Source of the DNA: Adhaeribacter pallidiroseus
GTDB lineage: Bacteria; Bacteroidota; Bacteroidia; Cytophagales; Hymenobacteraceae
Length of the DNA stretch: 64,000 nt
Assembly: GCF_003340495.1 (NCBI RefSeq)
Contig: NZ_QASA01000001.1
Span: 2,604,001-2,668,000, forward strand
Reading direction: 5' to 3'
In this document: one piece after another, positions 14,887-17,588 of the stretch
How the letters are laid out: each line of letters begins with the position of its first letter
How positions within the stretch are numbered: the first letter of the stretch is position 1
Position numbers and translations under genes: made by a program
Notes under the pieces: model-generated
What the model saw: the letters and a program-made list of their open reading frames with translations, nothing else
The model's database searches: none
Told to the model about the DNA's origin: nothing

Positions 14887-15003
14887 GGAAAATTTTAAAA
14901 AAGTAGTTTTAAACAATCCTGAATACCGGTAAACAAAACAATATTGTTCCGGTTATCGGTTAATTTTGGGTGGATATGTGGAATAATAAAGGTAAATATA
15001 ATG

Positions 15004-15032
15004 CAGATAACCGGAGTAACTCCGTTTATCTG
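15004..15032. repeat. 29-bp near-perfect palindrome after actP
   Basis: CAGATAACCGGAGT, one base, then ACTCCGTTTATCTG: a 14-bp stem with one mismatch and almost no loop. It lies 32 bp before the TTG start of the lipoprotein gene. It is not followed by a T run, so a terminator is less likely. It could be an operator or the edge of the inserted DNA. Confidence 0.5.
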
Positions 15033-15063
15033 GTAGTTATAATGCATTTAAAAGAAGATAAAA

Positions 15064-15639
15064 TTGAAACTACATTGTCTCATTATCCTGAATTTTATAG
15101 CTTTAACAGCTTGTAATCAAGTCGATTCGACCTCTACTACTAGCCAGAGGAATGTGCAGACAGCAAAAGGCAAAATTGAAAATAAAAAAACAGGAATTCC
15201 TCAATTAGATACAAGTAGAATAACTTTTACATCAATTAATCAAGTAGTTCAAAGCAAAAAATTTAATGCATGGGTCGAGCTGAAAGATAGTACGGCCTCT
15301 CTTGCGTTACATTTTGACTCTAGCAACCAGGATACTCTTTCTATGTCTTACTCTCCTGAATGTTGGCTTTTTTACCCATTTAAGGTTGAGGATAATCAAA
15401 TAATATTGTATTGGGATAACCTAATTGATAGTAAGTACGACTTTGATATTGTAAAAGCTATAAACAAAACCGACAAAAGATTTATTGGGAAACCATTTAT
15501 GACTTTAGAGCTTATCAATGACACTACTCTAAAAGCTACTTATTTGATTCCTGACCTGATTAAGAAGATAAATAACTCAAGTAAGGAGCGGATCTTGTTT
15601 CCTGAAAAGTTCACCTTATCACAAGAGTTTTATTTATAA
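15064..15639 (+). CDS. Putative lipoprotein of unknown function
   Basis: 191 aa from a TTG start; the only nearby ATG (15042) is out of frame. The N-terminus MKLHCLIILNFIALTAC gives a lipoprotein signal with a lipobox ending at Cys17, so the product is probably attached to a membrane on the periplasmic side. The rest contains WLFYPFKVEDNQIILYWDN and TTLKATYLI, a beta-rich pattern, but no family was recognised. Base composition is more A+T rich than the neighbours, with little CGG/GCC codon use, consistent with acquired DNA. The stop lies 17 bp before an attC-like half-site. Confidence 0.6.
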   Translation: MKLHCLIILNFIALTACNQVDSTSTTSQRNVQTAKGKIENKKTGIPQLDTSRITFTSINQVVQSKKFNAWVELKDSTASLALHFDSSNQDTLSMSYSPECWLFYPFKVEDNQIILYWDNLIDSKYDFDIVKAINKTDKRFIGKPFMTLELINDTTLKATYLIPDLIKKINNSSKERILFPEKFTLSQEFYL

Positions 15640-15655
15640 GAAAAAAAGAAAAACG

Positions 15656-16308
15656 TCGCCTAATCGAGTGGATGGCTGACAGCCAATTGACTGCCAGTGC
15701 ACCCCTCACACCACCGAACGTACGGATCGCGTATTCGGCGGTTCGTTAAGGATAGTATAATCGCTCTTTACACCGATTGTACCCTTGTCCTAGTTTGAGA
15801 TAAGGCTAGCAAACTATAATGTTTGAACCTGCTTATCGGATTTCGGACAACTTCACGTTTGGCCCTTCTCTGCCCGGTGAGACCTCCGTAGTGCTTACGG
15901 CTCGTTTCCGGGCGGCTACTATGGCCGCTGCTGACTTCTCCCTTGCCAACTCGTGGCCGCGAGACCTCCCCAGGTAAGACCCTTATCCTTCCTTCTAAAC
16001 CGGCGGCATCTACCAAGAATCGTTTGTGGGCCCAGGGCTTCACCAAGAGGTGCTTGCTTACCCACGACTCCCGGCCTCTTATACCGTTTCTGTTCGTCCG
16101 TTCAGAAGTTTGCAGTTCCGCTTCCTTCCCTGCATGGGTCACCCCAAACCAGCTTGCGACTTGCTAATTGGCTTCACCAACTTGCCAATACAGGATTTGC
16201 ACCTGCTGGATAATCTGAGTATATTACTTGCGTAATATTACTCGTGCCATGCTGGGCACACACAACACCTAAAAACCATTAAAACGCATTTTAGCCCAAC
16301 CGTTAGTG
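15656..16308 (+). other. attC-like recombination site 1, split by the intron
   Basis: If the intron (15663-16261) is removed, the exon ends join as CGTCGCCTAAC|AACACC. GCCTAAC fits the integron core box RYYYAAC. It is followed by CTAAAA...TTTTAG as a short inner stem and by CCGTTAGTGG as the second, partly complementary box (16300-16308). The order gene, box, stem, box, next gene is that of an integron cassette border. The match is partial, because GTTAGTG does not fully satisfy GTTRRRY. Confidence 0.4.
15663..16261 (-). ncRNA. ORF-less group II intron (self-splicing ribozyme)
   Basis: Read on the minus strand, the element begins GTGTGCCCAGCATGGC, matching the GUGYG 5-prime end of group II introns. 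Domain I words such as GACGAACAGAAACGG and TTACCTGGGGAGGTC follow, then GAAGTCAGCAGCGGCCATAG, the block that normally precedes the intron-encoded protein. Domain V is the hairpin at about 15728-15695 (ACCGCCGAA...TTCGGTGGT, CGC triad). A domain VI hairpin (CTGGCAG/CTGTCAG) follows and ends CCACTCGAT. No reverse transcriptase/maturase is left: only about 180 nt lie between the pre-ORF block and domain V. It would therefore need a maturase in trans to move. Borders are estimated from the consensus ends. Confidence 0.75.
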
Positions 16309-16352
16309 GTAATTTTCATGATAACCTTCAGAGATTAATTTGGAGTAATTCT

Positions 16353-17428
16353 ATGACTTCGAAACACCCTCATATAATAATAATAGGTGCTGGTATTGTA
16401 GGTGCTAGTCTTACTTATCATTTAGCCAAACAGAATGCACGTGTTACATTGCTTGACAAAGCGGCTAAACCAGCTAATGAGGCAACAGAAAAATCGTTTG
16501 CCTGGATTGTAGCAGGATATGATGCAACACAGATGTATATGTCTCTAAGACAGCAAGCAATTAGTGATTGGCATCGAGTGGAAGACGAACTAAACAGGCG
16601 GCTTAAAATTGACTGGACAGGCGCTTTGACCTGGCTTGAAAGTAATGAGAAAACAGAAGAGTGGATGTGTAAACTTAAACACTCCGACTCTAAAGTGCGC
16701 CTGGTTGAAGAACAGGAACTCCGTTTGTTGGAGCCTAATCTCAAAACTGTACCTTCCTTGGCAATGTTTGCTGAAGATGAAGGTGCAATAAATCCTAATC
16801 TTACTACAAATTTATTTATCAAGGCTGCTCAGGAATGGGGTGCAAAAGTTCTACTTGATGCGGAAGTACTTTCTTTATTAATTAATAAATCAGCTATAGA
16901 AGGAGTAGCAACGAACAAGGGTACTATAATAGCTGATGTGGTAGTGTTAGCAACAGGAGTAAATACAGTTTCACTGTGCCATCCGTTACATTTGAAGTTA
17001 CCAATTGATGTATCACCCGCTATTTTAATGGAGCTTCATAATCCAGACCGGTTCGTGAATCATATTGTTTCTAATCCCTTTATGGAGATACGTGCGGCTT
17101 CGGATACACTAACATTGGCTGCAGAAAATTATATTGATGAATCTTCAATCCAACAGCGATAGCGCAACGCACGCTAGAAACAATCAAACACCACTGGCAA
17201 GGTGCTGAGCAACTAAGGCTTGTAAATGTTAAAGTGGGCAAGCGACCATTGCCAATAGATGGTTTGCCAATCATTGGGAGAGTAAAGGATGTTGGGTGTC
17301 TGTATCTTTTTGTTATGCACTCAGGGGTAACACTTGCCGCTGTTGCCGGTAGACTTGCTGCTTCCGAAATATTGACTGAGCAGGATGAAGCTCTATTATC
17401 ATCCTACCGGCTGCAAAGATTCCTCTAA
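16353..17428 (+). pseudogene. FAD-dependent oxidoreductase (DAO family), frameshifted
   Basis: The first frame (16353-17162, 269 codons) starts with the dinucleotide-binding motif IIIGAGIVGASLTYHLA and matches glycine oxidase/D-amino acid dehydrogenase-like DAO proteins. It ends early at ESSIQQR. The sequence resumes in another frame from about 17147 as NPTAIAQRTLETIKHHW and runs through KRPLPIDGLPIIGRV and MHSGVTLAAVAGRLAASE, the normal C-terminal FAD-contact segment, to the stop at 17428. One lost base (or two gained) near 17145-17155 explains the break; there is no homopolymer there. Together the parts give a full-length protein of about 357 aa. It could be a sequencing error, but the cassette-like setting makes decay plausible. 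Confidence 0.8.
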
Positions 17429-17446
17429 TATAAGGCAAAAGTAAAA

Positions 17447-17588
17447 CTACCACCAACAAATGGCTTTCTGCTGTGCGGGCTGACACTTCTCACCTCATCA
17501 TTTATAATTCTATCCGTCTTTAGTAAATTATTTAGCAGACGCAACAATACTGCCCGCACAGCAGAAAGCCGGAACCGTAAGCGGCATT
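17447..17588 (+). other. attC-like site 2 with a 19-bp perfect inverted repeat
   Basis: GGCTTTCTGCTGTGCGGGC (17462-17480) and its exact reverse complement (17552-17570) enclose 71 nt. Outside the arms lie CCACCAAC on the left and CCGTAAGCGG on the right, again partly complementary. The arrangement, 20 bp after one coding region and just before the next ATG, resembles long bacterial attC sites. No T run follows, so it is not a standard terminator. Confidence 0.45.

Follow-up and report, generated by a model that had tools for sequence, protein, structure and literature searches.

An ORF-less group II intron in an attC-like site of an integron-like cassette array of Adhaeribacter pallidiroseus

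What is a group II intron without a reading frame doing in the first box of a hairpin site, and what is the array to which this site belongs? The question is raised by a locus of Adhaeribacter pallidiroseus that lies within the whole stretch of 64,000 nt analysed here, referred to below as the window (C1:2604001-2668000 of the 6.43-Mb, three-contig genome G000). We argue that the locus contains an ORF-less group IIC-attC intron that would have arrived by retrohoming into an attC site of a Bacteroidota integron-like array, a reading to which we assign a probability of roughly 0.85. A preliminary description of the same DNA had recognized the intron and its attC-like site; the membership of this site in an integron-like system lay beyond its view. 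The features of the locus, in window coordinates, are the following.

14944..15036, plus strand: attI-like site, a conserved block, with the crossover G|TT at 15036|15037
15037..16302, plus strand: putative cassette 1, as delimited from the sequence, with a 191-aa ORF and an intron-split attC1; its own start matches R'' in 2 of 8 bases
15064..15639, plus strand: ORF of cassette 1, 191 aa, no Pfam match
15658..15662, plus strand: left part of the attC1 R'' box, GCCTA, continuing at 16262-16263 (AC)
15663..16261, minus strand: ORF-less intron of probable group IIC, 599 nt, 5' GUGUG at 16261, 3' end CGAU at 15663
15663..15743, minus strand: intron domains V and VI, RF00029, 35.1 bits, below the gathering threshold of 40
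15979..16148, minus strand: intron domains I-IV, RF02001, 109.8 bits, gathering threshold 32
16262..16308, plus strand: remainder of attC1 (end of R'', spacer, L arms, R'), with the crossover G|TT at 16302|16303
16303..17577, plus strand: cassette 2, a DAO-family FAD oxidoreductase (PF01266 on both pieces, the second below cut-off)
17447..17585, plus strand: attC2, with a long stem, R'' at 17447-17457, and a degenerate R', G|TA at 17577|17578

The intron and its relatives

On the minus strand of the window, the intron begins with GUGUGCCCAGC at 16261 and ends with CACUCGAU at 15663. Its first bases, GTGTGTG, are compatible with two 5' registers, of which the starts of the relatives (GTGTGGT/GTGCGCCC) favour 16261. 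The coordinates, the strand, both ends and the lack of a maturase agree with the preliminary description, and its classification as an ORF-less group II intron is borne out by the match to RF02001 (group-II-D1D4-3 in Rfam; 109.8 bits), which covers the full model, 1-170, and by the absence of a maturase ORF among the open reading frames of the intron. The outcome for domains V and VI is divided: the expected match to RF00029 is present, with E-values of 6.2e-5 in a 1.1-kb stretch and 8.5e-5 in the whole genome, and its score of 35.1 bits stays under the gathering threshold. This cut-off is not decisive, because the four relatives with an IEP that this genome contains reach 38.4 bits and thus also fall below 40. 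A remnant of an IEP was sought in the intron as well, and tblastn with the IEP of the relatives returned one antisense match only (E 1.6). With neither an ORF nor a remnant, the intron is therefore best viewed as an ORF-less derivative of the group IIC-attC type: RNA domains I-VI, class IIC (by indirect assignment) and an R'' site on the bottom strand are present, and an IEP of its own is absent.

The four relatives are longer copies at about 2.68, 4.15, 5.83 and 5.85 Mb, to which the window intron is 76–77% identical over query bases 45-434 and 85% identical over 52 bases around domain V. Compared with the first of them, two of the others are 99.84% and 100% identical over 1,855 bases, and the third is 98.86% identical over 1,926 bases extending into the flanks. 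All four encode the same intact 438-aa IEP with a YADD motif, a group II reverse transcriptase/maturase (TIGR04416, 381 bits, cut-off 300) whose best solved relative is the GsI-IIC reverse transcriptase. It is by its RNA identity to introns with a GsI-IIC-like IEP that the assignment of the window intron to class IIC is, indirectly, supported. Full-length IEP-bearing copies had been expected in the genome, along with a maturase acting from elsewhere; with these four copies, a source of group IIC maturase is indeed present, and the window intron would be served by it in trans.

The ORF-less form might, however, be a dead remnant, vertically kept or decaying, that is neither spliced nor mobile. 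Such a reading would fit the missing IEP, the low domain V/VI score and the fact that the ORF-less form is single-copy in the window's genome; it fits less well with the match to the full D1-D4 model and with the existence, in a second species (G005), of an ORF-less relative that is 86% identical over 563 nt, domain IV included. In G005, one full copy of 601 nt is accompanied by two parts, the 3' one 340 nt and the 5' one 268 nt long, which lie on two contigs and are identical to the full copy throughout (340/340 and 268/268, 100%). Since these parts overlap by 7 nt, they probably derive from a single copy that was interrupted by an insertion accompanied by a 7-bp duplication. Neighbouring cassettes beside the recombinase considered below harbour the full copy and the 3' part; their R'' boxes, taken across the former and after the latter, agree with the start of the respective cassette in 7 of 8 bases each. 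Thus, the identical ORF-less sequence in R'' at two cassette ends points to recent movement of this form without an IEP of its own, and we consider a dead remnant unlikely.

The attC-like sites and the cassette signature

Removal of the 599 nt fuses GCCTA and AC to GCCTAAC, just as the preliminary description had it; the exact joined-box pattern was absent from the window's genome in a pattern search. The five introns of this genome all interrupt the first box of the same kind of stem-loop, on its bottom strand, and have in common a 5' exon that consists of AACG, a spacer, a hairpin and TAGGTGTKGT, and a 3' exon that begins with T. Sixteen intron-bearing stretches of the genus yielded 13 intron starts, the 5' exon ending in GT in 13/13 (TGGT in eight, TTGT in three, ATGT in two); an attC-like site is detected by one or the other of the two models described below (R1 or R2) at ten of these starts, and not at G005 C36, G006 C410 and G006 C6. 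According to passages of PMC7923331, group IIC-attC introns target R'' of the attC bottom strand at TTGT/T and are oriented opposite to the cassettes. The window intron shares with them the IIC-like RNA, the bottom strand of attC, the orientation opposite to the cassette and the position in R'' at TTGT/T, so that the placement in the first box proposed earlier coincides with the published target. It differs in that it has no IEP and in that its host site belongs, on our reading, to an integron-like system of Bacteroidota, in a genome where no IntI over cut-off was found; also, seven of the eight IEP-bearing copies examined in the genus use TGGT/T, and one uses ATGT. Bacterial group II introns without an ORF usually share their genome with an IEP-bearing relative, as is the case here (passages of PMC4424553), whereas the attC target and the identical ORF-less sequence at two cassette ends in G005 set the present case apart. 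EBS1/IBS1 covariation between ORF-less and full-length introns was also considered, by eye: the loops read ACAA in all 12 cases and the preceding ACCA is GCCC in the window intron, so that no covariation is claimed.

The site family was described by two covariance models. R1, built from the five joined intron sites of the window's genome, attC1 included, finds 36 sites at E<0.01 in this genome, five of which are its own training rows (150 of 955 candidates scored). R2, which was used for the surveys, was built from 31 later hits. On the minus strand, attC1 scores 48.1 bits with R1, which was trained on it, and 49.1 bits with R2; both matches enter the first bases of the intron. In the 31-row alignment of R2, which was fitted to the structure and is hence biased toward it, 90.1% of the cells of the two helices are paired, and covariation reaches a score of 0.395, as compared to 0.176 ± 0.017 after shuffling and at most 0.107 in slid controls. 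By one of five measures, further pair types, the alignment is no higher than the shuffles (225/500), and in 16 of the 31 rows the outermost bases do not pair. With strict filters, R2 at E<=1e-4 has matches in 6 of 118 sampled genomes of the order, the host included, and none in 112. The small contig of the window's genome (66 kb, perhaps a plasmid) carries two attC-like sites of equal score, C3:10408-10466 and C3:45710-45768.

Since group IIC introns insert at intrinsic terminators (passages of PMC4424553), the window intron could simply follow this ordinary preference for terminator hairpins, with the resemblance to attC arising by chance. The window site is, indeed, AT-rich and folds weakly, and single-stranded DNA folding of the five joined sites gave z values of 0.44, -0.89, -0.94, 0.62 and -1.54 relative to shuffles, none clearly better. 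On the other hand, the insertion point in the window is within R'' and not after a T run, five introns occupy one site family that recurs at the 36 places mentioned above, and the sites are related to the cassettes that they terminate. Integron cassettes begin, after G|TT, with bases that pair with R'' at the far end of the same cassette, the two being joined in the circular form. The same relation is found here. For 60 cassettes of the genus (one site skipped, duplicate cassettes removed, L112 left out), R'' matches the own start in 4.78 of 8 bases and the start of the next cassette in 2.93; 5000 shuffles gave 2.80 ± 0.15, with a maximum of 3.33. For 39 cassettes from named genomes, the values are 4.67 (own), 2.87 (next) and 2.50 ± 0.20 (shuffled, maximum 3.21). 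The latter set comprises Pontibacter (15), Rufibacter (11), Adhaeribacter (5), Sabulibacter (2) and others (6); it was derived from 70 of 71 R2 hits, the opposite-strand one overlapping another, with two skipped, nine coming from locus L212 alone and one start containing Ns. When R'' is read across the intron, the intron-split sites L101 and L102 of the window's genome match their own cassette start in 5/8 and 6/8 bases, respectively, and such a match across the intron is also seen in L078.

A search that does not depend on the models was usable in 50 of 80 recombinase loci. An exact nine-base match between a start close to the recombinase and an R'' located beyond it occurs in 24 of the 50 loci and at 19 of 1087 control anchors; in the series of exact matches, five variable bases gave 31/50 vs 86/1087, six gave 24/50 vs 19, and seven gave 16/50 vs 7, and eight bases with one mismatch were matched in 17/50 loci vs 41 of the 1087 anchors. 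The exact search had replaced a version allowing one mismatch, which did not discriminate (41/53 recombinase loci vs 119/202 control anchors). By both cassette-start tests, the model-free matching and the matches across introns, a terminator-only reading of the site is disfavoured; with own-start matching above all shuffles in two sets, a chance resemblance of terminators to attC sites seems very improbable. At base 10, the start has A in 38 of the 39 cassettes and R'' has G in 33, both coming together in 32; this regular A/G mismatch may mark strand polarity.

Given that a cassette start and its own R'' are mutual inverted repeats, one could also think of small transposons with terminal inverted repeats instead of cassettes. 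The repeat, however, varies between cassettes and matches within each, the units are arranged head to tail with the common hairpin at one end only, and the arrays begin at an attI-like site; we find transposons hardly credible as an explanation. As a part of the overall reading given at the outset, and judging from the sequences, the arrays very probably consist of integron-type cassettes of a Bacteroidota integron-like system.

The array of the window and the dispersed attI-like sites

The attI-like block is matched in 8/8 genomes of the genus, the best E-values ranging from 3.8e-63 (own genome) to 7.3e-6 (G002). From this conserved block, the G|TT and the attC-like sites downstream, the array of the window is read as an attI-like site followed by two cassettes, the first of which has the intron in its attC1. 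The start of cassette 2 matches R'' of attC2 in 9 of 10 bases, GTT included, and the frame of its oxidoreductase gene (16353-17428) is broken in two near 17162. Neither R1 nor R2 detects attC2; its 11-base match, with two mismatches, is not unique in the window, where four other places on the plus strand and one on the minus strand match with at most one mismatch. The identification of attC2 therefore relies on its position and its stem, with a bottom-strand fold of -59.7 kcal/mol, calculated with RNA parameters and without a shuffle control. Because its own start matches R'' in only 2 of 8 bases, cassette 1 may have been fused or rearranged; attC sites that have R''/R' boxes combined with own-start matching are thus found in the 60- and 39-cassette groups and in cassette 2, and not in cassette 1. 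As long as the intron sits in R'', attC1 is interrupted and cassette 1 is, hence, probably immobile.

Contig C1 of the window's genome contains 11 copies of the attI-like site (E<=1e-3) dispersed over the chromosome, e.g. at 2618930, 2676735, 2729154 and 4152906, and an attC-like site on the cassette strand follows within 3 kb after 10 of these 11, as compared to 0.6% of random points. Behind the symporter gene, the attI-like block is present in G003 and G007, followed by DNA without similarity to the window, and a decayed block is seen by eye at the same place in G004. The symporter-acs interval was compared in seven relatives (in G003, acs is not reached): the aligned ends are 47 bases apart in G006, and the two genes are more than 4 kb apart in G004 and G007. 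An intron-free allele, for which the preliminary description had proposed to search in related strains, was not found in these relatives at this exact place; the interval itself varies in length and content.

The arrival of the intron can be envisaged as follows. The maturase/reverse transcriptase of an IEP-bearing relative, supplied in trans, would bind the ORF-less RNA to form an RNP, which would recognize the folded bottom strand of attC, the hairpin taking the place of IBS2, reverse-splice at TTGT/T in R'' and then be copied into DNA. From RNA, the intron could be spliced out, whereas in the DNA attC would stay interrupted. This attC would close one of the two cassettes of an array that begins with an attI-like site, in a system composed of G|TT cassettes, R''/own-start matching, attI-like sites and an IntI-related tyrosine recombinase devoid of the IntI-specific insertion. 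To judge from the anatomy and the neighbourhood, this recombinase would cut and join cassettes at G|TT, between the attC hairpin and the attI-like site.

The recombinase at the array heads and known integrons

In the window's genome, no IntI over the cut-off of TIGR02249 was found. The best match, with 204 bits against the cut-off of 265, is a 338-aa tyrosine recombinase (C1:1339519-1340535) directly upstream of an array; the N-terminal part of this gene is in another frame. Intact relatives of about 480 aa are encoded in G003, G005 and G006; G001 has a 431-aa frame, and the match in G002 contains a stop. In G000, G001, G003, G005 and G006, an attI-like site lies, by eye, about 130-190 bases behind the recombinase stop and is followed by the first cassette, so that attI is next to the integrase gene in these five genomes; in G003 and G006 it is of the same type as the dispersed copies, and in G000, G001 and G005 it is of another kind. 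No integrase lies beside the attI-like DNA of the window array. In G004 and G007, which have arrays, no close relative of the recombinase was found beyond Xer-like proteins and, in G007, a fragment.

A scan of GTDB genomes with an alignment of five gave at least 562 relatives of the recombinase, and of the 80 that were kept, most are labelled as Bacteroidota. In these 80 loci, R2 has 71 matches at E<=1 (45 at E<=0.01), distributed over 26 loci; 70 of the 71 are on the strand expected for cassettes running with the recombinase, and 69 of these 70 are downstream of it. The spacing between the K-R motif and HxLRH, measurable in 24 of 30 IntI, 41 of 80 genome-contig recombinases, 5/5 genus recombinases and 12/12 Xer proteins, is 100 residues in IntI (24/24), 58 (40) or 60 (1) in the genome-contig relatives, 58 in the five of the genus, and 64-66 in the 12 Xer proteins of the genus. 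In agreement with this, the alignment to the IntI structure 2a3v has a gap at the place of the IntI-specific insertion. Thus, neither by score (204 vs 265 bits) nor by spacing (58-60 vs 100 residues) is the enzyme an IntI with the specific additional domain. In a tree of 60 of the 82 measured proteins (even/odd thinning), IntI form one group (100/100) and Xer another (100/99); IntI and the insertion-free recombinases go together against the genus Xer (100/99), support for the insertion-free group as such is weak (91/52), and the connection between Xer and IntI runs over long branches. Because of the narrow sampling of Xer, both a gain of I2 in IntI and its loss here are compatible with this tree. 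A structure model of the recombinase (pLDDT 82.7, pTM 0.64) has its best Foldseek E-value with XerA 5hxy, followed by IntI 2a3v, and TM scores by target of 0.66 (2a3v) vs 0.52 (5hxy) for the first chains, which is not decisive. Residues 1-165 of the recombinase at L203:8001-9434 (+) are predicted to form two similar beta-beta-alpha-beta-beta-alpha units and have no Pfam match. In three species, the recombinase is adjoined by a small gene that is read away from it (L173:3051-3431, L175:527-913 and L176:1795-2181); the one in L173 matches DUF2116 (treble clef) below cut-off.

Are the cassettes moved by this recombinase, or by the housekeeping XerC/XerD or an IntI encoded elsewhere, with the neighbouring recombinase as a passenger? 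The latter could be argued from the arrays kept in G004 and G007 without the recombinase, from the 84 genomes, among 296 sampled in the phylum, that have an IntI above the curated cut-off, and from passages of Smyshlyaev et al. (PMC8138268), where the insertion that the recombinase lacks is called essential for integron function, yet is described as not fully conserved in an integron-like subgroup. However, 86 of the 89 genomes with an IntI match at E<=1e-40 are outside the window's class, IntI over cut-off is absent from the window's own genome, the recombinase groups with IntI and apart from the genus Xer proteins, and it lies directly upstream of the attI-like site in the genus and of arrays in several genera. 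Movement by Xer or by a distant IntI appears unlikely on this evidence, and we infer that the tyrosine recombinase at the array heads is the likely integrase of these cassettes.

With integrons, including sedentary chromosomal ones, the present arrays share the attI-like site, G|TT, the R''/own-start match, attC-like hairpins and a tyrosine recombinase at the head. Unlike integrons, they have a recombinase that lacks the IntI-specific insertion and carries an N-terminal part of about 200 residues; its gene points with the cassettes, and several attI-headed arrays are far from any integrase gene found. In the Treponema-type integrons, as passages of PMC3607928 describe, the integrase is likewise transcribed toward attI, in the direction of the cassettes; the enzyme there is called IntI, whereas the enzyme here is below the IntI cut-off. 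The window array, being without an adjoining integrase, resembles a CALIN (attC cluster without integrase), from which it differs by the attI-like site at its head.

The intron by itself is a modest, ORF-less addition to the group IIC-attC introns: it indicates that these attC sites serve as targets for IIC introns and that more than one of them, in a related species, has recently been occupied by the protein-less form. The larger result would be the surrounding system, its notable part being an integron-like organization that has no I2-type insertion and in which a single genome contains ten dispersed, attI-headed arrays. I2 is regarded as the domain by which integron integrases can handle folded single-stranded attC sites. 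As passages of Escudero et al. 2016 (PMC4792948) put it, the origin of I2 and attC is a chicken-and-egg paradox, for which functional intermediates are sought. As a tentative proposal, to which we give somewhat less than even odds, there is a second, widespread kind of Bacteroidota integron, in which cassettes with hairpin attC sites are moved by a sister lineage of IntI that is without I2 (never had or lost) and shows a duplication of its N-terminal domain instead. A single integrase would act in trans on many dispersed attI platforms, and group IIC introns, ORF-less ones included, would reside in attC. If this is true, the second integron kind would be the intermediate form called for by the chicken-and-egg question, and a cassette system with attC hairpins, R''/own-start matching and an IntI-related recombinase without I2 would make the question of the I2/attC origin testable. 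Among the titles and abstracts listed (open-access PMC, preprints not included), none describes an integron from Bacteroidia that lacks the IntI insertion. The present data suggest that arrays in Bacteroidia may escape surveys based on IntI and the known attC model.

The recombinase is also found on plasmids. A shorter relative lies directly upstream of tet(X3) on plasmid pJAT2044 of Acinetobacter baylyi (L284, NZ_CP104735.1); that tet(X3) is a cassette of the integron-like system on this plasmid was considered and is not supported, the best partner having 3 mismatches of 10. On plasmids of Pontibacter kalidii, Rufibacter tibetensis and Chryseobacterium sp. SNU WT5, the recombinase gene is followed by rows of small genes. 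R2 matches are present on the first two; on the Chryseobacterium plasmid, R2 has no match, and an exact ten-base match between start and R'' is present. The latter plasmid (L285) also harbours, at 15464-17318, a full-length intron with RF02001 and RF00029 both above cut-off, the maturase of which is 64% identical to that of the host of the window intron; it sits in the gene row behind the recombinase, in the orientation opposite to the genes.
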